Assembly (NCBI RefSeq): GCF_037975245.1
Contig: NC_092574.1
Location: 23,625,713 to 23,689,712 of the forward strand
Length of the DNA stretch: 64,000 bases
DNA from: Apostichopus japonicus
Taxonomy: Eukaryota > Echinodermata > Holothuroidea > Aspidochirotida > Stichopodidae
Reading direction: 5' to 3'
The notes beneath the pieces are model-generated. The model did no database searches. It worked only from the letters and a program-made list of their open reading frames with translations, and was not told where the DNA came from. Shown one piece after another: positions 13,902 through 64,000 of the stretch. The position numbers and the translations under genes are program-made. How positions within the stretch are numbered: position 1 is the first letter of the stretch; each line of letters begins with the position of its first letter.

Positions 13902-13905
<4 letters not shown>

Positions 13906-14093
13906 AAATCCAGAACAGTGAAAATATTCCAGCCTCCACAGGGATTCGAACCCGGGCTTCCCGCTCTGTACCCAAACACCCTAACCACTAGGCTATGGAC
14001 GCTGGTTGTATGTCCAGAGGTTCGAAACCGGCAAGGAAGGTCGTAATTCCACGTCTGTAGGCGTTTGTCACCTGTATCGAACAATACTAGTTC
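13902..14093 (-). mobile_element. tRNA-derived SINE, family B, copy 1
   Basis: Read on the minus strand. About 90 bases of head (AACTAGTATTGTTCGATACAG..., a TTACGACCTTCC block, GGTTTCGAACCTCTGG) precede a 71-base tRNA-like unit (14002-13932) with A box TAGCCTAGTGGTTAGGG and B box GGTTCGAATCC. A short 3' part ending CTGTTCTGGATTTTCC and the (TA)n tract follow. The acceptor arm still pairs with one mismatch but the anticodon arm is degraded, so it is not a functional tRNA. Confidence 0.85.
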
Positions 14094-14272
14094 TGTTATT
14101 TATAAATATATATATATATCGCAGGTAGTGCTTTATATTCACAGTCATACGGTGTGCTAATTACCATAACACCCTTTCAGTTTTCATCCAAATTGTCAAT
14201 TAATTATTTCAAAATAACTAGCTCTGCATGTGCTTAACCAAGTTAAGTCGCTACGTGTAGAGCCTAAAAGGG

Positions 14273-16793: not shown

Positions 16794-17134
16794 CAGTGGC
16801 GGAGCGTCCATACAGTCAGGGGCGGATGCCCCCCCCCCCCTGACGGACTCAAATGGACTGCTGGCGCCCTTTTCAGCTTTTTACCACTTTTTACTTATTC
16901 GCGATTATTGACTTTTTTACTGCGCTCTCATCTACCTATTGACATTTGTCACATTATCTGCAAATTAGCAAGGCCCGGAAAGGGTCATTTCCGGCGATCT
17001 AGGGAGTATCTTTACTCAAAAAAAAGTATGTACGCTCCGCGCCAACCTGTGGTGGCGCTCCGCATAGATAGTGTCGAAAGCGCCCCTACAGACCATTCTC
17101 GCCCCCCTGACCAAAACCCTTAGCTCCGCCACTG
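16794..17134. mobile_element. Non-autonomous hAT-like element with perfect 8-bp target duplication
   Basis: This 341-base element has exact 12-base terminal inverted repeats, CAGTGGCGGAGC...GCTCCGCCACTG. It is flanked by GCAGCGGT at 16786-16793 and again at 17135-17142. It has no coding capacity. The GC-rich core is inside on the minus strand (17070-16969). The termini resemble those of the 11145-13096 element but differ from those of 7950-8244. Confidence 0.85.
16969..17070 (-). repeat. Shared GC-rich core, copy 5
   Basis: On the minus strand it starts TATCTATGCGGAGCGCCACC, then GGTTGGCGCGGAGCG, CTCCCTAGATCGCCGG and ends GGGCCTTG. Confidence 0.85.
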
Positions 17135-21787: not shown

Positions 21788-22012
21788 CCCTTGTTGATCT
21801 ATCCAACAAATTTAGTTTGTGGCGACCCCGACGTTCTTCTGTTGAGCTATATCCAGCCATTAGTTGATGAGGATCCCGATCTTTGCTCTTTCCCAGTTGG
21901 TTTATAATTTCCCAGTCAATTTTCCGTTGTTCATCGAGTCATAAAAATATCTCGTTTACAATCCGTGTTCTGTCCTTCCTGTACTGTATTTTTCGTTCAA
22001 TGATTCGGAACT

Positions 22013-22200
22013 TGGGTGGGTAGGGGACGGTGGGAGTGAGTCCGAGCTCTTAGCGCGTTCAACGATTCGCCCTTTGTACCCACTGATCCTGATCAACGGG
22101 ATCTTGGGCGGGGTAGGGGACGGTGGGAGTGAGTCCGAGCTCTTTGCGCGTTCAACGATTCGCCCTTTATATATACTACTGATCCTGATTAACGGGATTC
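22013..22200. repeat. Tandem duplication of a roughly 91-bp unit
   Basis: Two adjacent copies each contain GTAGGGGACGGTGGGAGTGA, GTCCGAGCTCTT, GCGCGTTCAACGATTCGCCC and end CTGATCCTGATYAACGGGAT. The copies are about 90% alike, with a short TATATATA expansion in the second. Confidence 0.9.
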
Positions 22201-22481
22201 TGTACTTCTGTTTTTTTTTCTGGTTTATTTTGAATACTGGGGCTGTTTGTTCTGTCCCTTTTAAAAGACATCCGCGTCCCGTCATAAATAGCTGAACTTC
22301 AATTACGATGAATGGAGTGCCTTTATACATTCTTTGTATATATAAACAGTCAAATGCGTCGGTACACTACATGTCCTTCCGTTTACAGTGTTAGGACGTG
22401 AAATGGTGGAATTTGCTTGAAAGAGACATGCTTGCCTCCAAGAGATCTGCTCTCAGTGATAAATCTCATACCCGCAGAGCC

Positions 22482-24102: not shown

Positions 24103-26880
24103 GTGAGTTACTTTTAGTTTTCAGGGGGTATATTTTAGTTAAAACTAGGATCATTGTCAACCGTGTCGTTGGACATTTATTGTACCTGTTCTCAACCTAG
24201 TCGTTACTTAGGCCGAACTTGGGCTATATTATGAGACTTATGCAGTAACGTTAGGCCTACTATGCTACTAGTAATGGTTAGTAACAGGTAGTGATACTGG
24301 TGTAAATGAGAGTTTGTAAGCCTAACTTTACTTTAGTTAAGTATTGCCCAAGGGGTTAGGAAGCTGAAAGAAGCTCACTTGAAACCCTATCCAAGTGGAA
24401 ACCATGGATGAACAACATGAGTGTTCGGAGAGTTATGAGGCAGGCATGTAGTTGTCACGTCCATTCCTGCTCCTGCAGGGACTGCCATTTAAATCCCCAT
24501 CTGACAGATACCCTGTAAGAGCTAGTGAACCTCAACATCTAGCAACTTTCTCAAATACTGAGGGAGGTGAAGGCACCCACCCCATTCATCATCACTTCCG
24601 TGCAGCTATGTTGAATGAAGTTGTTTTAAAACCACTGAGAAAAAACGTAAACCAAACCCCAATTCCCAAACCAGAAATGTACCAAATCCATAGTAGACTC
24701 TGCTTAACAAGACTGCAAAGCAACAAGAAAACAGACCCAACAAAAGTGAGGGATCCCTGATAAATTGACACTTACAGTAGATTATCAATAAAGTTTCTGA
24801 AATTTGAGCCATGAGAGAAAAGGCTTCTAAAGTAAGTGGTCCAATTGTTGCTCTGCATGGAGAAAATATGACCCATTATTTAATGACTGTCACTGACATG
24901 TATTGTACAGATCTTTCTGTTGCTTCTCATATTTCATTCACTAGCAACCAATTAAAGCATATATATTAGCCATGGATGTAAAATTGACTGAGCAGGAAAA
25001 TGGTTTCTTGTACAAAATGTAAAGGGTGTAACCTTGAGTACTTTGTGAGAGTTTTTGTTAGGGGAAGAAACATATCAAATTAGTAAAATAAGAGAAGTTA
25101 CAACATAGCTAATATCAACATGTATACTAGATATTGTTACCATGGAAGGTTTATCACAACAATTTTGTTGTTGCCAAGGTAATTTTTTGAACCATAATCT
25201 TTGTTCACCTCAACACTAGCACTTCAAATCACTGAAGCGTATCGTCTGCATGGAACGCAGAGCTTCCTATCTCAAAAATATTTGTAGTAAAGTATGTTAA
25301 ATGCACTTGTAGTATAGTGAAATTTGAAGTTTGAGATTCTGTTTTATAAGAAAAGAAATGTGTGAGAAATTGGAAGTAAGTACTTTAACATTAAAGCAAT
25401 TTTGACTCTTCAAGTAGTTTGGGCTCAACATAGTGCAAGCATGGTCATCCAAGGAGATATTATTAAATCTAATGTGGCATTACTACTTAGAGGTTATCAT
25501 CTAAGGTTTAATGATTAAAAAAACTGAGGTTGGGCCTATACCTTTGATAACAGGTCATTGTAGGCTCAATTACATGGTACGCTATATAACTGTGTGCATT
25601 ACAAAGTGTAGATCCAATTTATACACTTACTACATGTATATTGTGGAGTTACTTGTTTCAATTAGGAATTTAATTCTTTCAGAATCAAGGACTTAGTATG
25701 TTAAAAGATGCAGGCATAGAAAGTGCTGCCTATGATTTCATTAACAAGTAAAAGGCCCTTGAATTTTAGTGCTTGCTGGTTGTTTCATTGTAACTGAATC
25801 CTCCTCTACAAGGCACAGACCAACCAATTACCCTTATGGAAGTCACTCTAAGGAGGAGAATTTCGATAATTACATTACTCATTCAAACTCACTAAGCTCT
25901 GGTCAATTGGGCCTTAATTAATTAATTAATACTCTATGATTAAAATTCAGACTTATACAGTGGATCACACAAGTTCAATGTAACGTTTTAACTCTTCTTA
26001 CACATCGAGGGGTAGAAGCAGTTCTCGATTTGGGTTTCCTTGTCAAAAATTTTGACCTTAATTGTTGTAAAGTTACAAGTCTGAATAGAAAATTTGTCCC
26101 TAGAGCCTGCAAAGTTTATTTGTTAGAAGACTTTTCATTGTAATAAAGATATTATACCCCTTTTTGTGTTACTGCACTGTGGTATCATGGTTAATGCCAT
26201 GTGGGCATTGGGTATACCTACTGTAACAAGGTATATATTGTTCTGACTCGTTGAAGAAAAACATCTCAATATATGGAAATGGCTAATCATTGATATGTTT
26301 CGGAGACTTATTTTAAGATCAAAGATACTAAGGGTTAATACACAGTTTGACATGGTTATTGGACAGAAATACCACCTGATTACCATCAAATATGAGGAGA
26401 GTAGTGCATTATATTATTATATTTTTTACCTTATGGTCTGCAGTTATGATTATTCCAACATATCATTCAGTTAATTCAGCTGAGATTGGAAAGCAAACAG
26501 ACTCTATGAAATTTGAACAAACACTCGGGTGGTATTTGTTGAAAGGAGACTATTATAAAGTTTGACCAAATAGTTCAATAAAGACTGACCTAGTTAACAC
26601 ACTGACAATGACGTCACAATAAGGACCATACTCGACTTGTGTTAGCAGAGATAACCACTAACCTGATGGGACATATCCCAAGTGCTGGATTACAAGTAAA
26701 TATTATAGCCTAAAGGTCACTTATGGCTGCACAACATCTTGTGGGCATTTAAGACACCTTTCATATGTGTTGAACAGATGCTACGTGTAAGGTACTGTAC
26801 CTTTATGTACTATAGTCATACTTTACAAGATACTTTCCGTATGGTTAAGGATTCCCATTAAGAACTTAGAACAAACTAAT

Positions 26881-26972
<92 letters not shown>

Positions 26973-29900
26973 ATTGAAATTGTAGTGAGTTGGAAAATCC
27001 AGAACAGTGAAAAAACTTCCAGCCTCCACCGGGATTCGAACCTGTGCCTCCCGCTTTATATGCGGACACCCTAACCACTAGGCTATGGATGCTGATTGTA
27101 CGTCCAGAGGCTCGGAACCGATAAGGAAGGTCGTAATTCCACTGTAGGCACCTATGAATTTTCCATTTAAATCATCGATTAATCTTTCTTATTTTAGTTT
27201 TTTTATCCTCCGTCAAACATTCTGATACGGAATGATGGATTTAAAATTGGTGTTTAAAGTTAGTTCATTAGTTCGTTAGTTCATTTCAATGCCCTCTTAA
27301 AACAAATTCGATCCTAGACACACTGTACACCCAATCGAGCTCAAAAGACCAATTATTCTGAGCATAATGTTCAAGAAATCTCTGCTAAGCTATTCTGTCA
27401 ACAACTGTTGTTTACTTGTCAGATTGAGCTAGAACTCACAGACAGCCCGAGGCAGCTTGCCTCAAAAGTAACTCATCGATGCAGCAAACTTGTTAAGTCT
27501 CAATTGAATGCAACTGGCAAGTTCACAGCTTATCACAGTTAAGTTATATTTAGTCCTAAGATACCCCCTGGTTGGCCCTAAACATGATTAACTCCCCTAC
27601 TGTATATATAATTAACTGTCATGACAGGCAGACAGGGATAAAAAAGGGACTTGGTTCATCTCATAGTCCCCTGTCTTTATTTAAATACCATTCATTCTCA
27701 CATTGCTTAAGATGTTTGTGTAAGGGATGTAATAGAAAGAATTGAAAAGATGGCCACTTAAACCTTTGAACACAGCAATTTGTGCATGCAACCACAAGCT
27801 TAACTTGTGAATCAGACGTGAAGGCAGTCCGAAGATGCATCTTTAAACTTGTAAAGTCTAGTTTTATCACATCCATTATCACCGTTTACCCTGGGCTCCT
27901 TTCCCCCTCCCCTTCTTTCTTGACCTATAGATGCTATAGCAGTCCGGATTCACAGTGTTTTTTAGGTGCTGAGTTAGCCTGTGCCAGCATAATACATTTC
28001 AAAGAGTCACAATATCTTTTTTAGTATACGTTCAGCTAATTGTCCACTCGATAGTTTTTTTTTTAAATTTGCAGTTTTTTATGGCCTTGCCTGGGATTTT
28101 GAGATCTATAGTACATACAGATACAACAAAATATTAGTCCCAGGTTATTATAAATCTATATAACAATTTCAACTTGTTGTCAGGGGATGTGTTTTTGTTG
28201 GGAATGATACATGTGTAAAAACTTCCGAAAATTTGAGATCAAGTGATAACAATCTGATTTTAATTTACGACTTACAGACACAGAATGAGCCCTACCATTG
28301 TGTTTGTAACGATGAGGATCTTTTCCATTCAAGTTATCATTTTTGTTTTTGGTTTATCAAAAACAAGAACCGTTGCGGTGAACCAAAATGACTGAGATTT
28401 AAAGCAAACAGGTTTTTGTAGTTGAAGTTAGGCGCGTGGGTTGTCATTGTTTGCAGAATGAATTTTGCGTGACTGGTGATGTGGGAACAAAACTACAGCC
28501 AATTAGTTGGTGCAGGGTTCAAATGAATCACGATAAGGTGATGGCTAATGGATCCTTCCAATTTAATCCTTGTGTTAAATTAGAAAGCAAGGAAATGGGT
28601 GTTTGGAGAGGAGGGTTGGATAGGGCAGGGGTGAGGGCAGGCGGGGAGGGGGGTGAGAGGAGGAAGAATTGAAATGAATTGAAAATATATGAACACAGTA
28701 AGAAGCTTTAGTATTAGCTTAGCATTGTAAGAACTTTTTACAACTAGACTTCAAATGTTTCGTTCCTTCAATAGTAAGACCTTATTAATTAAGTCTTACA
28801 GAGACCTGTACCATTGTATGGTACCGTACATTTCATAGTCAACCACCCTCTGAAAGTTATCAGCAAGGCAAGAGAGAGCACTTTCTTGTATGTTGTAGTA
28901 TGTATATACTGTATTTCATCCTGGGTGTTTAAAAACCAAACAGATCAACACGACAACACCAATAGCAATACATTTGAGTCCTGAGAAACCATCTGCTGTT
29001 TTTTTTTTGGGGGGGGATGGGGGGAGGAAGAGCCATGTGTTTTACTTACTATGTACTGTATGTAATTGATTGATTGATAGTGATTTCCTGGTATTAGGCA
29101 CAGTTTTCAAATTTATGTATCCAGCTACTATATCAAATTTGTTTTTTTTGAGCTGCCAAACTAAATTTCGGATCTGATGTTAAACCTTCTTCTGGATTTG
29201 GAACATATTAAAAGAAGATTAATTTTTTTGTATTTGGTGCTGGGAGGGGAGGGGGGGGAGGGGGAGGGACATAGAGGTGGGAATGGGTGCAGGGTTGATG
29301 GTGGGTATTGGTGATGGTAGGCATTGGTGATGGTGTTTTGTACAGTATTGAGTTAAATTACTAGATCATGGACTTGAATTTTTTCTTGTGTGCATTTTAT
29401 GTGAAAATGTTAGGGCTCTGCTTAAATGAGCAACCAGAAACTCTGTAAATGTACCATTTTTGACAATATTATGTAACAGCTGACTGCAGGCCACATGTAC
29501 TCTACCCTTAGGATACAAATATTTCCTGTATATACACCTCAAGATGGTTAGCCTACCTCAAGAGACCACATTGCATACTTACTAGAAAATGGAGACTATT
29601 GGAGAAATGTTATTATGTAGCTTCAATCAGATGCAACTGAATTGGTAAATACAGGTTAGAATTGGGTGTCCCGTGAATAGCAGCTTTTCCAGTTGATGAC
29701 CCTCTCAGAAACGAGCAGGATAAGAAGCTTTTTCCTTTGTGTTTTCTGCCTCTTCATTTTGGCTTATCTTTTGTTGATCAAACAATCACTGCTTCCCTTC
29801 TCAAAGCAAATGGCCAAAAATAAAAAACAAGAAACAAAAAAAATTGACCAATGGCACCCCCTGACTGGTCGTCCAGGAAAATCATCTGCAGTGATTTTGC

Positions 29901-36468: not shown

Positions 36469-39400
36469 TATCAGGCTGAAATTTCTATTGTCTATGAGAG
36501 ATTACTATCCGTGCAGTTTCCTAATTATGATCATGTTGGTTATATTCTGTGGTCTGTTAGGAATGTGATGTATTCATCTGTGAGTACTATTAAATCAGAA
36601 TGCATTCTATTCACACCTTTTCAGTTGGTGTTTTGTTTTGTGGCTTACGGACACAGACATAACTAACACTTTGCGGTACTTGCTGTAATTTGGCAGTTTG
36701 CCAGACTAATGTAAAGTGTTAAAGTTGTAATGCTTCTGTTTATAATGAACTCTTTCATGTTGTCTCACTGTACTTTATGTGTGAACTAAATACTAAGCTT
36801 GAAGGACACAGCAGTATTCTGTACACAGTGTACAGAAACATCTTTCACTTGAAATTATTATTTTCTTACTACATAATACATCTGTGTGTGATAACCTTGC
36901 ATTAAAAAGGAGAAACTATGAATAGAAATTAATTACTGTTAAAAATGGTTAATTAATTACCATCCTACCTGTCTCCGCTTACATCATGCACTTTCTTATC
37001 TAAAAACTTACCAGCAAATTGTTAACTTTTTTTTTATTGCACTATGTCCACCCTGACCCACTTCCTGCACTGTACTAAATATAAAAAACCAAGTAAAATA
37101 ACAAGGACATAGATTAGTATTAAGTTGAATTGACGAGTATGAAATAAAAAGAATTTATTTGAAAGTTTTGGTTCCCCAGTAAACCCATAAGTGTAAATGA
37201 ATACAAATAAAATACCAGTTCCAAGCAACATTGTCGATAATATTGTCCACAATAAAAATGGTTAAGGAGGGAGTACATGGTTTATCTATTTAGTTTATCT
37301 ATAGACTATATATAATATAGTATGTCTATTTTTAACCTACAACATGTTGTTACTGGAGTTTCACGCCTGTGCGGCGATCATCAGACAACTGGAAGCAAAT
37401 GTTTGTGTCTGTTTATACATGCACATAATGTTACATTGCTATAGTGAGGAAGGGGGGGGGGGAATCAAGCAGGGTATGGGTATAGTGCCTTGGGGAGAGG
37501 GGTTATCAAGAGAAAAGTGGGTGGGGGCGGGGAAGGAAGATAGTTCAGTGGGTATTTCGGATGTGACATGATAAGGATTAAATGCAAAACATTTAACAAA
37601 CCTGATATACAAAGCATTCAGTATTTTATCGATCCTTACAATTTACTTTATCCCCTTAGGTTTCCCCTGGTTACCCTTAGGTTACCCTTAGGTTACCCTG
37701 GTTACCCTTTATCCCCTTGGGTTCATCCCCTGTAGGTTACCCTGGCTTTCATGTCTTTTGGACACATGTACAAGCTTGTCACTCATAAATAACCAACTTA
37801 AATAACTAAAGTAGATTGTTCTGCAGATAAAAATATATTTGTGGACAGTTTGCACTCACTCTGTTATAAATGGTGCTATTTATAGCATAAGGGACAGGTT
37901 CATTAGTCCATCAGTTGTAATGTACACTTGAGTTTGAAATGTATAGCCAAGTATAGAGATTCAATTACGCATTAGTTGTATTATATTCAATGTACAATTC
38001 TGTTCATCACACAATAGAAGCTAGCTAGGTGTCATCATTTTGCTGGGAATTAAGTGTCCTTCAAATATGCCATTTTAGTGATTGCATCTAGATCGCTAAA
38101 AACGATGAAAATTAATTAATGGTGAGACAAAGGTGATCACATTTGCTGTGAATGTCTTGAGCCAATTCCCTACCTGGGATATTTTGACTTTCTGTTGTGT
38201 TTAAAGTAGTATATTGTGTTTAAATATATGACCCCAAAGTTACACCTACACTACCATTCATTGTGATCCTTACGCTATTCCAAACACGTACCAGGCATAT
38301 TTTGCGAGCAAGACATCTTGAATCTTACAAAATTTAGCAATCAGGATAAACATATTCGTCAGCAAAATGGCTAATTTTATTTCGTTCCCCGCTTACCTGT
38401 CTCCCCACAACTTTAGCACCTTACTCTGCAGTGCCTAGAATTATCCAACAATAAGCCACATCACATCTCTGTTACATATATATTGCATTCATGTATGAAG
38501 GGCACATCGGGTTGCCTCAGTATTGCGCAATCTGATGTGTGAAATTTCTGGATTACTAACAGTCTCTTACACTGTATTAGTGTTAGAACGATATTTATAT
38601 GCACAGTATAGTACACTTTTGTCCTACTTGGGGTTCTCCGATTAAAAATTCTATCACAGTAATCTCTCTGTCATAAATTGCAAGTTGCTGATATATGTAA
38701 ATGAATGTAAGTGACAATGGAATGCTAAAAATTCCAGTTAAATGCAATATGGAACTTTAAGGTTGTCCCAATTGGCAATCTGAGTTGTCTAATATGGTGT
38801 GATATTTACTGTACTTTCATGCACCAAATATATTCATTTCAAATTTTGGTGAAAATATTTAAATCAGTCCATTAGCAACTCCCCACACTCCCCAATTCCT
38901 TCCACACTCCCCAATTCCCCCCCCCCCCAAAAAAAATGGCTGGGTTGGTTGTCTTACATTTGTACCACTTATTGTCTGAATTTAGATTGCCTTTTTGCTT
39001 TATTTTTATATTTCCATAACTATTTCATAAATGGTACTCCTCTGTTTTCTTCATTCAGCCTGACTTTGATCTGGATCCTTACTTCAAGAGAGAACTTGAG
39101 AGCCCACCCAGATCGGAGGATTCCAGTAGCCCGCATCACCAGAGCATTTCTTTGTTGGAGGATATCCTGAAGGACACAGAGGAGCTCTCACACCTATGTT
39201 TGACCTCACCAACACCCTTTCAGCAAAACTCCCAGGAACCAGTGGTAACCATCAAACAGGAGCCGGACAGTACAACATCCTCGCCCCCGATGTGCCTCCA
39301 GCAAGTCGAGGAAGGCGTTAAAGAAGAAGCCATGCAGACTGTCTCCGTCGAATCTTTATTAGGCCAGGAGCAAGTCTCGAACGATTTACGTGGAACGGTG

Positions 39401-42400
39401 ATCAAGCGAGAAGCCTGTACGATAGACGAAGTGGTCTCCCCCGTACCATCTTCTTGCTCTTACACCGCGATCCAGAGAGGGGACTTGAAACCCCTGAACC
39501 TGATTGTCGCAGGAGCAAACCAGAAACGAGAGACGCCTCTACCGAGTCTACAGTCGTTCATGAATTCAAATTTTAGATCGTTGTCACTACCAGCCATTCC
39601 ATCGTTGAACTTTCCTTTTACGAGAAGTGATACAAAGTTGCCTCCTATTGCTCATACACTGAACAGCAGCTGCACTGGTAATGCTGTTCCTACAGTCTTG
39701 CCTCCCACACCCCCTAACTCTCACCCAGGCTCTCCTTCGGACTTTCCATTGACCCTTGACCTCAGGCCGCCTCCGCCTCCCTATCAAGTGGCAATTGCTA
39801 GCAAAGGTAGGCCTACTAGACCGATCCTCCCGGTTGGTTCTGTTTCCAATGCCTTGCATACGAACAATGTTACAAGCACTACATCTCTGCTGAATCAGCA
39901 TCCAGTGAAATACAACCGCAGAAATAATCCCGATTTGGAAAGAAGGAGAATCCATCACTGTGAATATCCAGGTAAACTAAATTCTATTACTTTTCCAAAA
40001 AAATAAAAAATAAAAAAAATTATCACAACATTTTCATATATTTTAATGGAAACTTTGTGATAGAAATTAAGAACAAATAAAAAACAAATGGAAGAAGAAA
40101 AAATTGGCTGACTTTGAAACTGTTTTACAATATGACACGAAAACCTTCTTTGAGTAGAATTTTATCCATCACAAGCAAAAGTGTGGATAATATTATATTG
40201 TAGGGCTGTATTAAAATTTGATTTTGAAAACCAAATATTGACTTTTCGCATCCATACTTCTGCTACTGCCTGCAGGACAGCTGTATACAAACATTTGATG
40301 TAGGAACTTTCTATCATCATTGATTAAATTTGTCTGTGTTTTGATGGTAAGGTAAGGATGTACTCTAGTGCCCATTTCTAAGTCCTTCCTAATGGTAATC
40401 ATATAGTACTATAATGAATGCCGGAGATATAAGAATTCTTCAGCCTATTCCAACCTGCTTTGTGTTTGCGATTAAAAGTGTTGTAGCACACTCTGCATGT
40501 TACATGGTGTGGTATTAATATGCACATAGGACTGAGCACTTTTAATGTTTAGATGTCCCTGGATATTTTTGGAAAAAGAATGAAGGTTGGAATATACCGT
40601 CAGTTTTGATAGTTTCCCTAAATATTTATGGAGCCTGCAGGACTGGTCAAAGGTCATGCAAAGATTCACATCCCCTCAAGGTGTCGATAATTGATATTTT
40701 CTTTTTATGCGATGAAAATGTCCCATTTTTTCCCCTGCAATTTGGATAAAAGGATTCCTTTCCTTCAGATCTGAAACGATTAATAGCCTGAAGAGAAATG
40801 CATGTTACAGATGTTTTTTCACGTTATTGCTCAAAGGTCCTCAATGTATCTGCTTTTTAAGTTTTTTGATGTAGCAGACACTTTCGACATATCGTAAAGT
40901 TTTTGCAACCAAATAGCGTTACAAATTTTGTACATAATGTAAGGCTTTACAAACGTGAACTCTAGTTACATGGAAAGCCACTGGCAGTTGTGCGAAATGT
41001 TTTCTAAGGATGAAGTTATTGTAGTGTTGCACATATGTGTGTGACATCCCAATTGACAACTTGTGTCTTGATGCCTGTGAAGTAGTATTGTTATGCTAAT
41101 TATTTCTGCCTAAATGGTTTGCCAGTTTACAGCCATGTTGTCGCTGGCATATTGCAACCGAGTGTTTCGTGTTTCACAGAGCTGGTGATGCGTTCTGCAG
41201 AGGCTCGATGATCAATATATAATACACCAACCTGTAAAATTCACACTTCCTAAGAGTTTACATTTCGATCAATTTATGAAAACAGAAAAAAAAAATCAAA
41301 ACAAATAACAAAAAATCCATCCTTGTGATAAAGGCAAGATAGAACTTTACATACTGCGAGAAAGACATCTTAAGATTTGTTTGATAATATACAGTAGCAC
41401 TTGTGGCATGCATGATTGGAAAATTCCCAAATACTACAATGAAGATGGTTAGTCCTTCCAATGTAGAGTCCGGTCATATTATTAAAATATTGTACAGTGT
41501 ATACTGTACATCCATACATGGCAGAGATTACTTGTCACATTGTGCTTCCTCACAACACCTGCACATGGCTTTGGGGAGGTGGGTGGGGTGGGGGAGGGGT
41601 GGGGAGATGTGACCGTAAGAAGACCTGATGAGAGGGGTAAGGGTGTGGATGGTGGTGGGCTATAGCTGCAGGGGTTAATAAGGGGGCCCAGAGAAATATG
41701 GGATGGAGTAAAATATTTCTCATTTTCATTATATACTGTTCCGAAAGGGAAAATGAAGACTTTTTCCTAATATCCTGACTTGGCTCTCACAACACCTGTG
41801 GCTTTGGGGAGGTGGGTGATGGGGGGGGGGGAGGAGTGGGGAGATGATGATCATTTCAATCTCTATCACCTGATCTGTTCTTGTGGATGATGGCATTGAG
41901 AAGAGGATGGAGGGGAGAGTCTACATATTGTACATGTATAGTGAATATGGTAATGGTAGTTTACTATATATACTGTATAACTGCCTTATGATTGAGCTTA
42001 TGGTTTTGAGTTTGTCTGTCCTATGGGTAACTTCAAAAAACATTTCTTGCATATATTGAGCATGCATGACTACAAAGTTTTCTTATCAATATTTCCAACA
42101 CAATAATTCATCATACATATTTACATGTAGCTGTAGAGCTCTCTTATAGGCTATGGGTATGATCAAGTACACAAGTACACAGTATTTTTTGTCATATTTG
42201 AACCTCATCAAGTCAGAAATGGAAACGGTCAGAAACGGTATTAACGTTCATCTAATAATAGATAGGGAGGCCCTCAATTAGTTTATACTGGTATCAATCG
42301 ATGAAAAGATATACAGTAGGCAGAAATATCTAAGAGGACTGTTATTGTTAGTAAAGATCCAAACTGTTTTGGCTCAATTATCTTGGTCCAAGAATTTCAA

Positions 42401-48400: not shown

Positions 48401-51400
48401 TAGAAGTTTTCACATGGTACAAATGCTGCCACTCACTGTGTAGGTGACATCGGCCTGCCTGCCTTCATGGCACATTATTTTTGCCATGTACCAGGACGTT
48501 GCAGATTAGCTCAACTGTATATAAACAACCTGTAGTACTTGAAATAATCCATAAGTCAGTTGAGGTGCAACTGTATAATTTACATCTCATATACGATATA
48601 TGAAATGTAAATTATACAGTTGCACGCACCTCAACTGACTTATGGATTATTTCAAGTACTACAGGTTGTTTAATACCAATGATCCGCTCAGATTTATGAC
48701 AAGTTATTTAGTACAAATATTTACACTATAGTGTAATGACACCATCTTTCCCTAGCTGAAAAACTAGAAACCATTCTTTGTAAACAATGGTTCAACATTG
48801 ATTTGTTATAAACGGTAAGCAGTCGAGAAAGAATTGGAGATAATTTTTACTTAACAATATATGATCAGATGAACCTATGGCACCCAATTTGCATTTATAA
48901 ATATCTCAGCAAAAGTAAGAATTGTTGAGTTTCATTTTTTTGCAATAATAGTAGTACACAGAGATATATAGTCATACACTAGGCATAGCCATATGCTGGC
49001 TGATATGCTGGCTGAAGGATAGGTGCTATGCTTTGTTCCCACTGTCCCATATGGAACCCAATTACTGTACTTGTGGAGAAGTGCAAACCTGCATACAAAG
49101 ATCAAAGTTGACAAATAATCTTTCGAGAGGATATATTTTTATTCCTTCCTCTGCTAGTCAAGGTAAATAAACTCTAGAGTAGCTTTGCTCGAAACCCATC
49201 TGAACCTGATCTGCATCTCTCTTAATTATGATAAACTACAGTACTGTAGGTGCTTCACAGAATTAATCAAACTGACTGTATTAGAAATAAGCCAATTGAG
49301 TCTGACTATAGGAATGCCACAGTTGAATACAATGTGAGTTGGTTTTAAGGGACATTGTGGTTGTCTGTTGTAGTAGAGGCATTTTGGTCATGCAGCTGAA
49401 GTGAAGAATGTGGGACTGTTGGGAGAATGTGGGACTGTGGGAAGAATGTGGGACTGTGGGGGAGAATGTGGGACTTTGGGAAGAATGTGGGACAGGGGGG
49501 GGGAGAATGTGAGACCGTGGGGAGAATGTGGGACTATGGGAAGAATGTGGGAAGAATGTGGGACTGTAGGGAGAATGTGGGACTGTGGGAAGAATGTGGG
49601 ACTGTGGGGAGAATGTGGGACTGTGGGGAGAATGTGGGACTGTGGGAAGAATGTGGGACACAGGGAAGAATGTGGGACTGTAGGGAGAATGTGCGACTGT
49701 GGGAAGAATGTGGGACTGTGGGAAGAATGTGGGACTATCAGTGAATAGATAAGGTTAGAGGTGGGGACTACAGTTAAGGAGTAAAGTACATTTTGGGAAG
49801 CTTACATCCTCTGAATATTCATGTTAATCATCCCATCTTGTACTGTTCATCATGAGTGATAACATGCTTACAAGTTTTGTGATAGTATATAATTGAGGCG
49901 TTGATTCCCCCGTGAATACATACATACAGTACACTATGGTACAGTGTACAAAAAGAGCTCTGTAATGGAAACATTCTAGTACATGTATGTAAAGTTAGAT
50001 TTTTCATTTAAATTACCTACCAGCAGAAAACAGTCTATCTATATAGAGGATTGAAAGGTTTCTGCACCTGGCCGATATGTTAGCACACACTGTATTTTGT
50101 GTGGGTTGAATTCAAACAAGCAAAATCATTATTCAAATAATACTGTAGCGTTGCTTCCATGATCCTGTCAAACCGTTAGTTATGGTGCCTTAACGAATGG
50201 GAGGTTTATAAAATAAAGTCCATAAGGGCAATTTGGGTCTACATTCATAGAAAACAGGAAACAGAGTCATTGGATTCTGTTTAATATTAAGTAAATGTCT
50301 CTTGTAAATAAAAGCCGTTCCATTTTTATTGACCCCTATAATTTTTCGAGTTGTGTCGTACAGTATTGGTAACATTTGTTTAATGTACTTAGAGATCTGT
50401 TATCTCTGAGGTCTGAGGAATTAACTCTGTGGGCTTTGTGTGCACAATTTAAGCGCATCGAAGAAGGTGGAAATTGCGGTCTTAATTCACCTCTTCGTGA
50501 GCTTCCAAACAAGCGTTTAGAAGTAATCACCAGCTGCCAAACAGCTATGTACAGCAGTAGTACCTGTAACATGAAGTTTAGTGAATGAATTAAAACAGAC
50601 TATGCCTTTTTTTTCATGACCATAGTTAAGCATACTTTAACAGCTGTCCCAAACAGCTAGATCCTTCATACAACATTATATGCTTAGCTATACTGTATCA
50701 GTATCTGAATTCCCCATCAATATTTCTCTATGCTTCAGTATTTCCCTAGTATCAATATTTCTCTATGCTTCAGTATTTCCCTAGTATCAATATTTGAGGT
50801 ATGTATCTGTTGTATTAAATTGAAACGGCAAGTAACCACTCAAGTTTGAGATCCAGTTTAAATTTTTATCCCTGAGTCAAATACGGTAATTATTTTCTTA
50901 GACACTAGTTTGTAAATTTATATAGTTGGCATTCATTTTCTTTTCAGGAAGAATATTTTGGAGATATCCAGACCAAGTTTTGAGCTGTTTCCTAATATTT
51001 TTTGTAAAACACTAAATGATTCAATATGTAGGATATGTTTGATGTACAATATGTTCTGTTTATTAGGAAGTAAATATCAGACTGTGGGATCTACATTGTG
51101 TAGTTGTGTATATAGTTTATAGTTATACCCCTGACTTTACATAATGTATGCTCATTTCAGTAGTCTAGACACTGTTGGTAACATCTACAAAAGCAATAGC
51201 ATTATGTGCAAGGGAATTAACCGTGATACAAAAAAAAAAAAAAATTGTTAAAAGTCACTCTTGCATGCATGGAATATGAATGCACTTTTGCTGGTGTGTT
51301 GAAAATAGAACTCCAATGATCTATTGAAGCTCTCCAATTAATGTGTCTCCATTGGAGCATGCTTTGACTGTTTCATTGGCATATATGCTAGCGATTCAGA

Positions 51401-52823
51401 TTAATACAACGCTATTGGTTTTGCTAGTTAAAGCCTCGTTTATATTTTGAGAAAGAAATTAATCATGGGGATCAGGATTTTGGTTATCCTCAGCGCAGTA
51501 ACAATAAAAGCTCACCTTGGACACATCAGCATTTCAGAATGGCGGGCTGATCAATGTTGTTCGCACGTTGAAGAACATATACGCCAGCTATATTTCCACC
51601 CATGCATTTTTTTTTAGAAACACTGCCTAATTAGTTCATCTATGTCCACTTTTGTTTTTGATTGGGGGAATAGCAGATTGGGGGGGGGGGGAGGGGGAGT
51701 TGGTTTCTGGACAGTCTATATGCAAAGGAAAATGTCTTGTTTAACCTGTGTGGCATTTTAACTTCATAAAAAATAATGACGTATGTTACTTCTTATTCTG
51801 GGTACGGTTCATGAGTAGTCAATCTAGCGTTATATGATATGTATGCACAGACATTGTGTACAGTATTAAAGCAAGACACTGTTTGTTCTTCTGTCCTACA
51901 GTTCATAGACTGTTCAAATTTGAGTAGCTGTGTACAATATAACTGGTTTCTATAGATTTGTTATTGTTTGGAGTAGAGCTTCTGTCTGGAGTTAGGACCT
52001 AACTCTGTCTGTCTTTAGCAATGGTTACTGGTACCTGGGTATTGTTGTTGCTATGTGCAACCAGTCCTGTTTTGTGGCATATCAAGGACGAAGTCAATAA
52101 AGTGGGGGAAGGGGAGGCGAGGGGGCTGAGAGAAATAGGAAGGGGCTGAGAGTGGGTTGAGGAGTTAAAACAAATGTCTAAGTTGGTCTGCAGTTACTGA
52201 CAGGGGCATAAACTTGACAAAGATAATAGCTCATATTGATCAATTCAGGGTCTTCATTACATTGATAAGATTGATCAGTCTTTTTTGTATGCCCTGCCCA
52301 TAAATTAATTATTTTCTTAATAATGCCGTCATTATAACACAATTATAGAGTTCACCAGGTAGTGTGTAAGTAATGTGGAGAAGCTCTTACATGTTAAAAT
52401 AACCACACTTGTATTTATGTATTATTTATTTATGTATTTATTTACTTATGATTTTCATTATGAGCATTATTATCTATCTGTTTTCTTTCTTCCCATCCTT
52501 CTATAGGTTGCACCAAAGTGTACACAAAGTCATCACACCTGAAGGCCCACGAGAGGATACACACCGGTGAGAAACCTTACCTGTGCTCCTGGCCCGGTTG
52601 CCTCTGGCGATTTGCCAGGTCCGATGAGTTGACCAGACACTATAGAAAACATACGGGAGCTAAACCCTTCAAGTGTAAAATATGCGGCCGGTGCTTCTCG
52701 AGATCGGACCATTTAGCGCTCCACGTGAAGAGACATCAAGAGAAGATGAGGTTGCAAGCGCTTCAAGCTCAGCAAGGAATGGAGTTCTGCCTTCCCCTGA
52801 TGAACCAACCAGTTTCTCTTTAA
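23980..52823 (+). CDS. KLF5: KLF5-like Kruppel-like zinc-finger transcription factor, three coding exons
   Basis: Exons 23980-24102, 39059-39971 and 52507-52823 join in phase to 450 codons (human KLF5 is 457). The ATG has A at -3 and G at +4. The protein would act in the nucleus on GC/CACCC boxes. Order of features: acidic N-terminus (about 20-95); psi-K-x-E SUMO-type sites at K107 (IKQE), K129 (VKEE) and K157 (IKRE); TPPNS at 258-262, like the FBW7 phosphodegron of KLF5; PPPPPY at 278-283, a WW-domain ligand; [21 protein letters not shown] leading into the fingers. The fingers are C342/C347/H360/H364, C372/C377/H390/H394 and C402/C405/H418/H422, with helices carrying [14 protein letters not shown] and RSDHLAL. 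The blocks before the fingers match vertebrate KLF5 in order and wording, which separates it from KLF4 or KLF6/7. A 28-residue tail follows the last finger, unlike vertebrate KLF5, which ends two residues after it. Confidence 0.88.
24358..24720 (-). mobile_element. tRNA-headed SINE, family A, copy 2 (head truncated)
   Basis: This body is homologous to 3811-4284 and 61558-62384. On the minus strand it runs from GCAGAGTCTACTATGGATTT through TTTCTGGTTTGGGAATTGG and CTCAGTATTTGAGAAAG to AGCTTCTTTCAGCTTCC. The tRNA-like head present in the other copies is missing. Confidence 0.75.
26884..26969. repeat. (TA)n microsatellite next to a SINE
   Basis: About 43 TA units, separated by roughly 20 bases from the tail side of the family B SINE that starts at 26990. 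Confidence 0.95.
26990..27158 (-). mobile_element. tRNA-derived SINE, family B, copy 2
   Basis: Same order as copy 1. The tRNA-like unit is 27092-27022 on the minus strand, with A box TAGCCTAGTGGTTAGGG and B box GGTTCGAATCCC. The tail side ends CTGTTCTGGATTTTCC... and the head contains TTACGACCTTCC. The far head is shortened by a small deletion, and the match stops near 27158. Confidence 0.85.
27159..30128. other. Intron 1 stretch with G-rich simple sequence
   Basis: No exon-like region seen. G-rich tracts lie at about 28600-28665, 29008-29030 and 29240-29275, and a GGTGATGG-type simple repeat is near 29297-29335. Confidence 0.4.
30129..30370. repeat. 34-bp minisatellite, seven copies
   Basis: The unit starts CATATTACACCCAGCCATGG and ends ACCACCTCTGT. 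Units 2-5 are identical. The first has one change in its AACC part and the seventh carries a 4-base insertion. Every unit has an NcoI-like CCATGG palindrome except the last. Confidence 0.97.
30380..30720 (+). promoter_or_regulatory. Candidate intronic regulatory region
   Basis: This patch of intron 1 is less AT-rich, free of simple repeats and dense in known-type sites. They include CTTTTGATCT (TCF/LEF-like, near 30490), CCATTGTTATCT (SOX plus GATA-like, near 30677) and AACCGTTTT (Myb-like, near 30460). The motifs are weak individually; I call it only because composition changes sharply from the minisatellite side. Confidence 0.22.
30816..31163 (-). other. Open frame of coding-like composition on the minus strand, unassigned
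   Basis: About 115 codons are open to a TAA near 30816. The last 70 codons use AAG/GAG/CTG/CTC-type codons and are cysteine-rich, ending [18 protein letters not shown]. The upstream end has no ATG context I trust and only a weak acceptor-like site (TTTCTAAAAG near 31050). An overlapping frame contains VVFPEG, reminiscent of the acyltransferase PEG motif, but the rest does not hold. It could be a decayed retrocopy, a nested exon or chance. Confidence 0.2.
31170..36408. other. Intron 1 stretch, nothing definite
   Basis: AT-rich, with a CT-rich tract (32605-32660), a (CT)11 tract (35281-35302) and poly-A/T runs. No convincing exon. Confidence 0.4.
36409..36466. repeat. (TA)n microsatellite, interrupted
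   Basis: TA repeat with single C and G interruptions. No SINE is attached, unlike the other two long (TA)n tracts. Confidence 0.9.
37649..37745. repeat. TTACCCTTAGG-type degenerate tandem repeat
   Basis: About eight imperfect units built from GGTTACCCT and ATCCCCTTAGG. It resembles telomere-type sequence only superficially; the register varies. Confidence 0.75.
38379..38442 (+). repeat. Dispersed 64-bp repeat, copy 1
   Basis: Contains TTCGTTCCCCGCTTACCTG and TCTCCCCACAACTTTAGCA and ends CAGTGCCTAGAATTA. It matches 42643-42706 at most positions. Copy 1 is in intron 1 and copy 2 in intron 2, in the same orientation. Confidence 0.75.
39059..39971 (+). CDS. KLF5: KLF5-like gene, coding exon 2
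   Basis: 913 bases. The acceptor is CTGTTTTCTTCATTCAG and the donor is G|GTAAAC. It encodes residues 42-345 and the first base of Gly346: the regulatory half of the protein and the first cysteine of finger 1. The long open frame has clearly higher G+C and codon bias than the flanking introns. Confidence 0.93.
41551..41848. repeat. G-rich duplicated block
   Basis: CACAACACCTG...GGCTTTGGGGAGGTGGGTG followed by a G-rich run and GGGGAGATG occurs at 41551-41610 and again at 41788-41848. Confidence 0.8.
42643..42706 (+). repeat. Dispersed 64-bp repeat, copy 2
   Basis: Matches 38379-38442, with TTCGTTCCTCGCTTACCTG, TCTCCCCACAACCTTAGCA and CAGTGCCTAGAATGA. Confidence 0.75.
42875..42922 (-). mobile_element. 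Solo hAT-type end
   Basis: On the minus strand it starts CAGTGGCGTACTAAGCCCAG followed by a G-rich run, in the style of the termini at 11145 and 16794. No partner end or 8-base duplication of the flanking GATACAAT was found. Confidence 0.4.
44793..45195. repeat. Three partial copies of a 90-110-bp unit plus CAGCTACAG-type repeats
   Basis: Units start near 44793, 44991 and 45101 with TATGAGTA...GCTA...AATAACTT. The first two share GTGAGTCTGTACTCTGTTGT and GGGAGTTGGTCATAT, then ATGCAGGCTGC. A short GGCAGCTACAG-type array lies between the first two. Confidence 0.85.
47285..47330 (+). mobile_element. Solo hAT-type end
   Basis: CAGTGGCGTCTTGGTAGAC resembles hAT termini in this window, but no matching right end or repeat of the flanking AATTATAC was found nearby. 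Confidence 0.25.
48524..48670. mobile_element. TA-flanked near-perfect palindrome (palindromic MITE)
   Basis: The left arm (48524-48592) and the right arm (about 48600-48670) are reverse complements over about 70 bases. The only differences are a 4-base insertion (GCGT) in the right arm and a few changes at the centre. The outermost bases are AACAACCTGTAGTACTTG and its complement, with TA on each side, as expected for Tc1/mariner-type insertion. It has no coding capacity. Confidence 0.85.
49404..49738. repeat. G-rich minisatellite, about 17 units of 17-20 bp
   Basis: Unit of GAATGTGGGACTGTGGGA type, with variants in the spacer (AGGGA, GGGGGA, ACACAGGGAA). All guanine runs are on the plus strand. 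Runs of three or more G at 5-8-base spacing make G-quadruplex folding possible. Confidence 0.97.
50716..50794. repeat. Exact 35-bp tandem duplication
   Basis: Two identical units start ATCAATATTTCTCTATGC and end TTTCCCTAGT, at 50716-50750 and 50751-50785, followed by nine bases of a third. Confidence 0.97.
52507..52823 (+). CDS. KLF5: KLF5-like gene, coding exon 3 (zinc fingers)
   Basis: 317 bases. The acceptor is preceded by a long pyrimidine tract ending CTATAG. Two bases complete Gly346, then the exon holds the rest of finger 1, all of fingers 2 and 3 with TGEKPY and TGAKPF linkers, and the tail [14 protein letters not shown]...NQPVSL. The stop is TAA at 52821-52823. No intron interrupts fingers 2 and 3. 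Confidence 0.97.
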
Positions 52824-56488: not shown

Positions 56489-56620
56489 CCTTGTAGATTG
56501 CTTCCTTGTTGTGCCTTTCACATTGATTTAACACCTCATATCATTCTTCCTTGCAACTAATTTACAAGTTCTATCAATCATGTTTGATCTCTTAGAGTAA
56601 GGCAAATATGTCACCAAAAA

Positions 56621-56812
56621 AGAACTAGTATTGTTCGATACAGGTGACAAACGCCTACAGTGAAATTACGACCTTCCTTATCGGTTTCGAACCTCTGGAC
56701 ATACAATCAGCGTCCATAGCCTAGTGGTTAGGGTGTCCGCATATAAAGCGGGAGGCCCGGGTTCGAGTCCCGGTGGAGGCTGGAAATTTTTTCACTGTTC
56801 TGGATTTTCCTT
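56621..56812 (+). mobile_element. tRNA-derived SINE, family B, copy 3 (best preserved)
   Basis: The head is AGAACTAGTATTGTTCGATA...TTACGACCTTCCTTATCGG. The tRNA-like unit (56712-56782) has A box TAGCCTAGTGGTTAGGG and B box GGTTCGAGTCCC. The tail ends TTCTGGATTTTCC. The T arm pairs perfectly and the acceptor arm has one mismatch. The anticodon stem CCGC/GCGG encloses a seven-base loop ATATAAA. This copy has no (TA)n tail. Confidence 0.88.
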
Positions 56813-59011
56813 CTCATTATGTTTTCAAATTATATATCTCAAATGCTTTGAATTGGTGAATAAAAGTAGATGGGTAGATGAGTTGTCGTACGCTACCACT
56901 CAGTCAGTATGCAGGTTGGGTATTACACTGAAGAGGATAACATTCACATGTTCAGCTTCTTTGAAATATATGTTGACTTTAAAGAATGTCGAAATGGTAT
57001 TTTATTCGTTACTACATTTTGGGAAGCAACTTGTTTACTACCCATGACAACGAAATCCATCCATGAATGTGTCGCTGTTTGCCTCCAAACATTGACTCTA
57101 CATATCGATACAAGCATTAACATGCCGACTAATTGTTATTGCTCAACTATGCCAGTATTATTTGGTAACTGTTTTGCTGTTTATAGATACAGCAGCCTCT
57201 ATTAGGACTGAATCAAAGTATTCCATTATTCAGTTTTGTCTGGCATATTCAGAAATGGTGTTTTATGGTGTTAAAAGTAACACAATGAATTGAAGAAAAG
57301 GCACGAGGTCCCAACGGTCTAAATATTGACAAAAAACCTTTCCACTTTGAAGGTACAGGTATAACAAAGGCAAACATTCCTTCTCTGGTAGTTTTCAGAT
57401 GAATGATTTTATTTTAAACCTAAGTAGTTCTGTATTTTACATAAAATTGTGGAAGAAATGTTTGAGGTTTAAATTGTGCTTTGTTTCAGGATCAGTGAGA
57501 CAATTCTGACTTTATAAAAAAATGTTACTGAAACCCAATTTGATATCACCAGCTCTCATGCAGGTACTCATATATATATGCCTGATTGTCTGCCTGTGTT
57601 GTTTTGTTTAATGTTGTATTTTGTATATTGTTCTTCCATTCATTATTTATCAGCTATATTGTATAGCAATAGTAAAAGCATTCAATTGTATGATAGGTTA
57701 AAATGTATTTTGAATTGAGATATAGTTAATCAGTATAAAAGAAGAAGAAAAACATAAATAAATAAAGGAGATAAAGTAGTCTAATTCTATAGAGAATAAC
57801 ATAAATTTGATACATTTTTAATTCAAAGAATGTTTTTTTTTTATATATATATATTTATAGAATATTGCGTCCTGCCTGTGTTAATAGTCAAATGATTTAA
57901 AAAAGTTATTGGTATTAATCTATTTCATCGTGAAAGTTATCTGTAAGCACAAACTGCTTTACCATGATAATTTAAAACGATATTAATAACTCTTCAGGTA
58001 TGCAGCCTCAAAAATGAATTTGTAATGTGTTTGCCTTGGGCAAGTGGGAGGAGTTAATAATAAGGTATTGTAATTGGTTTTACAAACTAAATTAGTCTTA
58101 TATCAGTCGTTCTCTGTCATTATCAGCAGCTGTTTGGATAAAAGAGGCTGTGAGATTATGCTCCCTGTAAAAGTTACATTTGAGGTAGTCAATTAAGTGA
58201 TAGCTGTAATCTTTCTGTGGTACCTCATGGGAGGTAACCTATGGATGTAACCCCAAAGTGACAGCTCAATTATGGGTTTTTCTACTTAGACATTTGCATC
58301 TGTCCTTTCCCAGAATATTTGTAAAGAACAATTTAAACTAATTATATTTTCCTCTTTGGATTTGTTAATGAAATTTTCAAGTGATTTAAAACTGTGCCTT
58401 GAATGAGCAAACACACTCCAGTGAGAGATGATCTTTTGAAGTAGTAACTCTTCTTAAGATTGAGAAATATTGTGTAACTTTTCTTAAATATTTTTTTGAA
58501 TAACAATAAATATGATGTTGGGATGAGGTCCCCTGTATTTTATGTCCCTTATTGTAAGTATGTCCCTTATTATATTTAAATGGTGGTAATAAGCTGGTAA
58601 TATTTATTTTTAACTTGTATAGTCAGTAGCTTACCCCCTATTTTTTTCTTGTTTTTTTTTAGTAACTTCCAATTTACAATACTGCTCTGCAGTCTTTCAG
58701 CTATGTTTCATTGTACAACGATGGCAGTGGTCTTCCATATACCTGTCTAATGATGTATTAATGCTTCCAATAAAGTACTGTAGTTGTAGAAATTACTCCA
58801 ATCAAAATTGCAATGCTTCTGGACTTTTCTTTTAGTGTTTTCTGCCATGATTGATTTGTGCATTTGTGTCTCATAACTGTTATGTCTATTAAACCCAACC
58901 GGGATTAATCTATTAATTAATTATTTTAATTAATTAATTCATTAATCTATTGATTCCAACTCAGTTTGACTCAGAATGATCCACAAACTATATAGTGACG
59001 GTTACAGGGAT
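56813..59011. other. Stretch without recognisable genes
   Basis: AT-rich, with AT-only simple sequence (57839-57856, 58910-58945). Nothing supportable as coding. Confidence 0.4.
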
Positions 59012-61055: not shown

Positions 61056-61557
61056 AATAGCAGCTCGTCCTACAATTCTACCACATATATCGCTCGTATG
61101 TATTACCTCGTCAAAATCATTGTGAACCTCAACAATAGATTTTCTCCCCAAATAGGCCTATAGTGTGTTTTACATCTATAGTGTTTTTCATCTATAGGGT
61201 GTTTAACATCTCAGCAGGAGTGATGAAAACTCTTACTGTCACTAGTAAGAGTGCACACCAAACCTGTGACCAGCATGTTGCTCGGGCAAAAAAAATGAGA
61301 AGTCAAATATTGACAACGCCCCCACAAAGTATTTCTCAGACCTGCCAAAGGTGTGAACCTTGAGAGACTCGACAACATACAAAAAAAACTCGTCCGAGAT
61401 GGTGCCCCCCAAAAAAAGGAGATTTCACAAAACGTTTTATTAAGTCAAATTCATATGAGATTTGAGTATCACACAGGGAGACAATACATGAGAGGTGTGG
61501 GCATGTTGTTAAACTTGAAATCTCACCAACTGCCACCTGAAGACATTTGGTTTAGGT

Positions 61558-61990
61558 CTGGTGTAGTGGTTAGACTGTTGCAGCACAACCAATAACTTCC
61601 TGATTCAAAACCTCACCAGGAATCAGATTATCTTGACCTATTCAGAATTAGTGTAACAGTAAGGGTGTCCACCCATCAGCCTCTAGGTTCAAAACCTCAC
61701 CAAAACCAGATTCTCTTGACCTATTCAGAATTGGTGTAGCAGTTAGAGTGTCCAACCAACAGCCTCTAGGTTCTAGGTTCAAACCCTCACCAGGAATCAG
61801 ATTATCTTGACCTATTCAGAACTGGTGTAGCAGTTAGAGTGTCCACCCAACAACCTCTAGGTTCTAGGTTCAAAACCTCACCAAACACCAGATTCTCTTG
61901 ACCTATTCAAAATTGGTGTAGCAGTATCCACCTAACAGCCTCCAGGTTCAAAGCCTCACCAAGAACTAGATTCTCTAGAACTACTCAGAA
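61558..61990 (+). repeat. Array of five tRNA-like head units
   Basis: Unit lengths are 90, 83, 91, 91 and 78 bases. Units 3 and 4 carry an internal GGTTCTAGGTTC duplication just before the B box. Unit 5 has lost 13 or so bases of the A-box side. Every unit keeps CACCA after the B box, the position where a tRNA 3' end would be. Confidence 0.88.
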
Positions 61991-62384
61991 TTGATGCTGT
62001 GCTGTGTTGTTGAGGGAATTATTGCATTGATGTTTTACTTCTGGTTTGGGATTGAGAAATGGTGCTTCCAAACAACTTTGTAAACCATGGCTGCACTGCT
62101 TTGATGATGCATGAGATGCCTTCAACCTCTCTCGGTATTTTGGGAGAAAGTAGTCAGATGTTGTGGTACTCCCCCTTGTGGGTCCGTCAGATGGAGATGA
62201 TTAAGTGGCAGACCATGAATGGGAATAGAAAGCAATAGTTACAAGCCTTCCTCATAATTCTCTGAACATTCAATCAAAGAATAACAATTTAATTCTTTTT
62301 TTAAAAAGACAAGCTTTATAGAGGGAGGTCTACACCCATAATAATATAATGGATAGTTTTTCAAATGAGCTTCTGTCGGCTTCC
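61558..62384 (+). mobile_element. tRNA-headed SINE, family A, copy 3, with five tandem heads
   Basis: Five direct head units (61558-61647, 61648-61730, 61731-61821, 61822-61912, 61913-61990) each have a GGTGTAGCAGTTAGAGTGTC-type A box and a GGTTCAAAACC-type B box, then TTGACCTATTCAGAA. A single body (61991-62384) follows, homologous to 4180-3811 and 24720-24358. Body landmarks are TTCTGGTTTGGGATTGAG, CCATGGCTGCACTG, CTCGGTATTTTGGGAG and AGCTTCTGTCGGCTTCC at the end. Confidence 0.8.
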
Positions 62385-64000
62385 TTCAGTAAATAAAAAC
62401 AAAGCATTATGTACCTAGCAACCAGTTTCATAAAGTACACAGAGCCTGCTAGAAGTTTACTGTGAAGGTATTGCAAACATGCATGATGACATTTTATTTG
62501 CAAACAATTTCAGACACATTGCAAGATGACTATTTCACACCTATTGTTCAGCACTGAGTTGCAACAAATTACTACATTGTTCTGTGGTCATGTATTGACA
62601 CAGTGGCAATACACTGCAAATATAAAAATCAAAGGTGTACAATTTTGTTACTTTTGACCTCATTGCATGCACGCTGACTACATGTATTAGCGACAGATTC
62701 AGCCACTCCCATATGAATATTTATGACAGCGAGTCCAGTCATATCAAAAGCATGTACTATTCCAAACCATAGTTCAGACATGAAGTAATTATGCATAGCT
62801 CCACCCACTAATTAATATTCAATTTGTGGCATCAAATCAGAAAACAAAAGAACACATAGACTATGGACTATTTCTGACATCACAACTGTGATTGTGGGGT
62901 GAATGCGCTTATTTAAACCTAACCTCAAATCAGCCGCTTTCAGATACAGAATTACCAGTCAGTAGGGCTTTGTCTTTCTGTTACGATACAACCGCTCTCA
63001 TCTTAACCTCAATTCATTCGCTTCCTTTACAGTGACACCTAATGCATATTACAAGACACAAGTAAATTCATTTCAATTGATTTATATATTTCTATTTTAC
63101 ACCAACCTTTCAAAAGAAAGTGGAAAACATTACATCATCAATAAAATCTGTGTTATCATACCAACTTCCCCACGAAACAATAACAAACCAAAAAAAAAAC
63201 TAAAAAAATTAACAAAATTGGACTGATTATGCAGCATGTATATATATATATATATATTATATATAGAGATATATCAAATGAAGAAATCAAATTAACTAGT
63301 CTTTGCTAGTTAATTAACCCACACTCATATTAAGTACCAATACAAATGTCAAATTAGAAACAAAAAATAGGCTGCATGACAAGAAAATTGAAAACAAAAC
63401 AAAACAAATTATTTTCATTAACATTCAGATCACAAAAATGTCATTATTTTAATATCACAAACCCCCTCCCCCCTAGCCGACCCCAAATAAAAAGACAAAG
63501 ATCATGAAATATAAGACAAAGTATAAAAGTATAGAGTTTTGGGATTCTAAATGTGACACCTCTAAACTAAGGGTGCTGGGAAGGGAATTCATGTTTTGTA
63601 ACCTCCATTAAACATAAAGGGCTCCAAGAAGCATTTCTTCCAAACATATGCAACTGTCATCCCCTGCACATATCCTCCTGCAATCCAAACCCTCCCTTAC
63701 CTCCCCCCCCCCCCAACACCTTGGCGATGCAAAATATCCTTCCTTGCTTGCATGATCTCTTCACACGACCACGTTAACATCTGTTATGAACATATATATA
63801 CCTACAATGTTTGGTACACATACATGAACCCATTTAATTGCCAAACTAAAAAAAAACTTGCATAAAATGATAACACTGTAATAAGAAATGTTTATCTTTA
63901 ATACTTTGTATGCAGAATGTTTCATTGAGACCCTTTTGACTCCACACTTGTCGTAAGAGTTAAATAGGACCTTTAGATGAAGATGTGGATGATATAGATT
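62385..64000. other. Right-edge stretch, no gene seen
   Basis: AT-rich with a (TA)n tract at about 63237-63257 and C-runs near 63461-63474 and 63702-63714. No exon-like region is supportable. Confidence 0.4.

Follow-up and report, generated by a model that had tools for sequence, protein, structure and literature searches.

A SINE-like element with five tandem head units in front of a single body: a probable proto-satellite grown at its insertion site

The Twin SINE of Culex contains two tRNA parts. Further dimeric SINEs are Alu and the dimers of insects and plants (PMC10702118). Tandem repeats built from parts of SINEs have been described in squamates as SINE-derived satellites, sSat (Vassetzky et al. 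2023, PMC10702118); according to the available portion of that paper, their unit consists of a part of the head and a part of the body, a longer terminal unit runs to the SINE end, alternating subvariants were taken to suggest dimeric growth, and the similarity at cobra loci is 82% with four units and 87% with five to nine units. In the limpet Patella caerulea, the large satellite PcH-sat, which accounts for about 10% of the genome, is said to derive from Nin-SINE, and boxes A and B are said to be absent from it (PMC11121367, available portion). None of the literature matches listed, as judged by title and the beginning of the abstract, described a five-headed SINE, the subscription journals lying mostly outside the search, and a search with motif letters of the SINE superfamily domains gave no SINE paper by title.

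The window, that is, the whole 64-kb stretch of DNA analysed, contains near its end five tandem units followed by one single body, as the first-pass annotation had described; sequence inspection, TRF and BLAST agreed on this arrangement. TRF gave a period of 91 for the array (4.6 copies) and also one of 174 (1.8 copies). The repeated unit is the head together with the first ~30 nt of the body (the linker) and not the head alone, since copy 1 of the element, found elsewhere in the window, carries head and linker once, directly before its body. The four junctions between units coincide in their position within the element, following CAGAATT, CAGAATT, CAGAACT and CAAAATT, and unit 5 with the body reaches to about 62386, the same end point as in copies 1 and 2. 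The features are as follows.

61560-61992, forward strand: array of five head-to-tail units, each with an A-box/B-box pair.
61560-61649, forward strand: unit 1, 90 nt; A-box at 61559 (no mismatch), B-box at 61602 (one mismatch), gap 32 nt; linker of type A, head the most divergent of the five.
61650-61732, forward strand: unit 2, 83 nt; A-box at 61649 (one mismatch), B-box at 61686 (none), gap 26 nt; linker of type B, 7 nt missing.
61733-61823, forward strand: unit 3, 91 nt; A-box at 61732 (one mismatch), B-box at 61776 (none), gap 33 nt; linker of type A, identical to that of unit 1 at 30/31 positions.
61824-61914, forward strand: unit 4, 91 nt; A-box at 61823 (one mismatch), B-box at 61867 (none), gap 33 nt; linker of type B, head identical to that of unit 3 at 57/60 positions.
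61915-61992, forward strand: unit 5, 78 nt; A-box at 61914 (one mismatch), B-box at 61945 (none), gap 20 nt; 6 and 7 nt missing, continues into the body.
61993-62386, forward strand: single SINE body, with blocks common to copies 1 and 2.
3811-4274, reverse strand: copy 1, one head and linker (4274-4186) followed by the body; one TTTT (4091).
24358-24720, reverse strand: copy 2, body only, no recognisable head.
22199-22370, forward strand: probable fourth, decayed body fragment; the body profile matched 22195-22370 (E 5.2e-6).

The array resembles the dimeric SINEs (Alu, the insect and plant dimers, Twin) in having more than one Pol III head-like unit per element; dimeric SINEs, however, amplify as dimers, and no second multi-head copy was seen in the window. 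The closer likeness is to the squamate sSat, as these are presented in the available portion of PMC10702118: the unit joins a tRNA-related head part to a body part, a longer terminal unit runs to the SINE end, subvariants alternate, and unit identity is similar, here 0.75-0.90 with a mean of 0.83 over ten pairs (gaps ignored). Where the squamate type has at least four units made of SINE parts and a longer terminal unit, the array has five units, with unit 5 as the longer terminal one. In contrast to the snake sSat, whose unit is described in the same portion of that paper as the box B-containing 3' part of the head, the unit here has both the A- and the B-box, and unlike the squamate sSat, with few to many units at many loci, the array is one locus seen here (PMC10702118). 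PcH-sat is comparable as a satellite unit with part of an invertebrate SINE and differs from the array, by the available account, in being a large satellite without boxes A and B (PMC11121367). The statement that SINEs normally have one, sometimes two, heads omits the squamate sSat (PMC10702118, available portion). By this comparison the locus fits an already known kind of sequence, SINE-derived tandem repeats.

The body of the element was found dispersed in the window, as had been noted for copies 1 and 2. Body against body, BLAST gave about 70% identity over 195-266 nt (E 3.6e-12, 1.1e-18 and 4.3e-25), and over 319 gap-free body columns the array copy differed from copy 1 at 103 and from copy 2 at 95, copies 1 and 2 differing from each other at 90. 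The head and linker of copy 1 matched the array by BLAST (E 5.9e-10), whereas neither BLAST nor the head profile recognised a head in copy 2, so that the three clear copies of the window carry five, one and no heads. The body profile was made from these three copies and therefore recovers them by construction, the array units being found through its head part. The fourth fragment scored 18.9 bits (bias ~11) against a best score of 9.5 in 20 shuffles of the remaining window; when it was compared directly with the three bodies, its score was equalled by 1, 0 and 0 of 200 shuffles, and its opposite strand scored at shuffle level. No head was seen at this decayed fragment. The profile also matched 52985-52955 at chance level (E 0.9) and gave no match at E ≤ 5 in the reversed window. 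Thus, the dispersed body copies that mark a tRNA-type SINE are present, as three copies and a probable decayed fragment in 64 kb, and these together with the Pol III boxes support a SINE-like element carrying five tandem head units.

In the target-site duplication search, in which one mismatch was allowed from 8 nt, positions 61500-61562 and 62375-62440 on the two sides of the array copy shared no word of at least 5 nt, and the flanks of copies 1 and 2 each gave one chance-like shared 5-mer. The missing duplication weighs little, since such repeats are expected to be decayed at ~30% divergence. In non-eukaryotic collections, two element patterns had no match in viral contigs and one had none in genome contigs; one further pattern matched five viral contigs, which had little in common with the element beyond the motif itself. 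Because of the make-up of these collections, the outcome carries no information on the host.

Directly before the fourth fragment lies a tandem duplication of two ~96-nt units (22007-22198), 89% identical over 100 columns. It was considered as a second head amplification and rejected, having no likeness to the heads (in five comparisons, 83-266 of 300 shuffles scored equally), so that head likeness gives no explanation of its adjacency to the fragment.

The Pol III boxes follow the consensus strings TRGYNNARNGG (A-box) and GGTTCRANNCC (B-box), and in the search 0-1 mismatch was allowed in each. Within these limits an A-box with a downstream B-box was present in 5/5 units, with a mismatch in four of the five A-boxes, as compared with a mean of 0.004 pairs in 500 dinucleotide shuffles of the 436 bases of the array (2/500 with one pair). 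With wider spacing the whole window gave 11 pairs against 0-4 in 10 shuffles, five of them from the array, three from tRNA genes and three background-like. The distance between the boxes is tRNA-like (32-33 nt) in units 1, 3 and 4 and shorter in units 2 and 5; in the tRNA genes of the window it is 32 nt (3/3). The boxes of every unit were thus confirmed, and the label "tRNA-like" that the first-pass annotation had attached to the heads rests on the boxes and on a marginal in-register resemblance; the Rfam tRNA model did not match the heads even at E ≤ 5. The resemblance was seen when the head profile was compared with the three tRNAs of the window, two of which matched in register (E 0.12 and 0.16), with scores of 8.9 and 8.4 bits where the highest of 20 shuffles reached 8.0. 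Folding was compared with 200 shuffles for units 1, 3 and 4, copy 1 and one window tRNA; shuffles folded as well in 75/200 cases for unit 1, 104/200 for unit 3 and 84/200 for copy 1, unit 4 was somewhat better (10/200), and the tRNA was clearly better (2/200). The CACCA that trails the B-box was rejected as a tRNA 3' CCA end: it begins 1 nt past the B-box in the units, where copy 1 has CGCCA, whereas the tRNA gene at 56709-56782 continues for 12 nt past its B-box before it ends.

The long and short forms of the unit differ by the stretch GGTTCTAGGTTC, which had been taken for a duplication in units 3 and 4 and for a sign of their local amplification. This reading did not stand as evidence of a derived mark, since copy 1 and unit 1 match the long form and align with units 3 and 4 across GGTTCTAGGTTC without a gap. 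Judged from this alignment and from the A-B gap of 32-33 nt, like that of the window tRNA genes, the better reading is that the long form would be ancestral and that 7 nt were lost in units 2 and 5, once or twice, perhaps between two copies of TAGGTTC. Strictly speaking, units 3 and 4 could instead have newly duplicated a segment of this length, their two 7-mers being identical.

The units differ in a graded manner. Units 2-4 were mutually identical at 0.87-0.90, unit 5 agreed with them at 0.83-0.86, and unit 1 agreed with the rest at 0.75-0.79; outer units more divergent than middle ones are as expected in arrays evolving by unequal exchange. The linkers alternate in the order A-B-A-B, those of units 2 and 4 agreeing at 29/30 positions pairwise and at 28/30 in the multiple alignment, and the closest heads are those of units 3 and 4. 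Between units 1 and 3, 18/59 head positions but 1/31 linker positions are different (Fisher p 0.002); for units 3 and 4 the corresponding counts are 3/60 and 7/31 (Fisher p 0.028), and units 2 and 4 show no contrast between head and linker (p 0.70). Among the informative columns of units 1-4, three, in the linker, group unit 1 with 3 and unit 2 with 4, none, in the head, groups unit 1 with 2 and unit 3 with 4, and one, in the head, groups unit 1 with 4 and unit 2 with 3; the alternation is carried by three linker sites only, which gives the mosaic a weak footing. Taken together with the 174-nt TRF period, the mosaic suggests exchange between units. The body branch of the array copy has a length of JC 0.224, and five units inserted together would be expected to differ by up to ~0.45, an expectation that takes the whole branch as age, although subfamily divergence also contributes to it. 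With differences of 0.10-0.15, units 2-4 would on that assumption be too similar for joint insertion, which speaks for on-site growth or homogenisation.

The locus is likely to be a proto-satellite derived from an old Pol III-type SINE copy, in which on-site multiplication of the 5' part produced five units. The process would have started from an already inserted old SINE copy with a tRNA-like head, in which the head and the first part of the body would have been multiplied by replication slippage or unequal exchange; later exchange between the units would have followed, and the outcome would be a short SINE-derived tandem repeat ahead of one 3' part. The edge divergence and the alternating linkers fit slippage or unequal exchange in an already inserted SINE, and unequal exchange, proposed by the first-pass annotation as the origin of the repeated heads, appears likely on the same grounds. 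Growth after insertion is most likely in view of the divergence pattern. Against it, the dating argument would fall away if the element had been inserted recently from a diverged source, and the missing target-site duplication also counts, if only slightly. The array probably has no selected role. Its boxes may attract TFIIIC at more than one place, and at most the units are several weak predicted Pol III start sites; as the transcripts would tend to stop at T-runs of the body, the array copy is probably immobile.

The next best explanation, a multi-headed SINE subfamily that was transcribed and inserted with at least two heads and perhaps grew afterwards at the locus, is unlikely. The head of unit 1 lies at JC 0.31-0.43 from the heads of units 2-5, which could be about what a duplication of insertion age would give and speaks for this subfamily and against growth wholly after insertion. 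However, the sole other headed copy in the window has one head (1/1), and units 2-4 resemble each other too closely for five heads to have been inserted together, unless homogenisation followed. In addition, the body of the array copy has T-runs at 62033 and 62138 (TTTT), 62296 (T7) and 62357 (T5), the first of them ~40 nt past the array. Since Pol III transcripts tend to end at such runs, those of the array copy would tend to stop short of the 3' end required for copying by a LINE. The array copy is not singled out by this, because T-runs also occur in the bodies of copy 1 and of copy 2 (24731, 24645 (T6) and 24631). That a SINE lineage moves with at least two Pol III heads, whose number rises and falls through slippage as in a regulatory repeat, is quite unlikely; if true, each copy would have several start sites, and mobile multi-headed copies would make the number of heads an adjustable property of Pol III transposons.

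Serial insertion of SINEs into each other with loss of the intervening bodies has a precedent in the tandem full-length SINEs, up to eight, of the Dip SINE of the jerboa (PMC10702118, available portion), but four junctions at one element point, with no tail or extra body between the units, make it highly improbable here. An unrelated satellite beside a body, or an assembly error, is equally far-fetched: in copy 1 this head and linker immediately precede the body, and, although the array was judged from the assembly alone, its units differ by 10-25% and hence are no mis-joined copy of one sequence.

With the five units read as grown in place on an inserted SINE, the array would show clearly, on a small scale, how a dispersed repeat begins to turn into a satellite. 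Should the host lie outside the squamates, as is suspected, the locus would also answer the question posed in the available portion of PMC10702118 of whether such arrays are restricted to squamates or are more widespread.

Other repeats were observed in the window. Three ~190-bp repeats are located at 13903-14097 (reverse strand), 26966-27149 (reverse strand) and 56618-56837 (forward strand), the first two being 90.3% and 90.8% identical to the third and 84.3% identical to each other over 254 columns including a TA tract. Each has a complete tRNA-like gene (called Cys, Tyr and Tyr) in its 3' half, and two of the three abut long (TA)n tracts; they may belong to a mobile element carrying a tRNA at some distance from its 5' end. 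A ~100-bp interspersed repeat has five copies, at 8011-8120, 11230-11341, 11391-11486 and 12010-12106 (forward strand) and at 16969-17075 (reverse strand), which are 75-81% identical and have a TATCTAAGCGGAGCGCCACCAT-like block in common; four of them lie within 4.1 kb.

An exon with KLF-like C2H2 zinc fingers is located at 52464-52820 (forward strand). Over one continuous stretch it matches KLF5 (E 1.7e-43) and KLF4 (E 2e-38), and by summed score many-finger proteins such as ZNF568 rank first. These matches place the host among the animals, and no more narrowly than that; a resemblance of the SINE body may hint at a marine invertebrate, though a squamate is also compatible with the results. 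Upstream of it, a 328-codon open frame at 39020-40006 (forward strand), with no Pfam match, may be the N-terminal part of the same gene. Finally, a 19-bp minisatellite of 17.7 copies at 49405-49736 is open in four reading frames of at least 110 codons.
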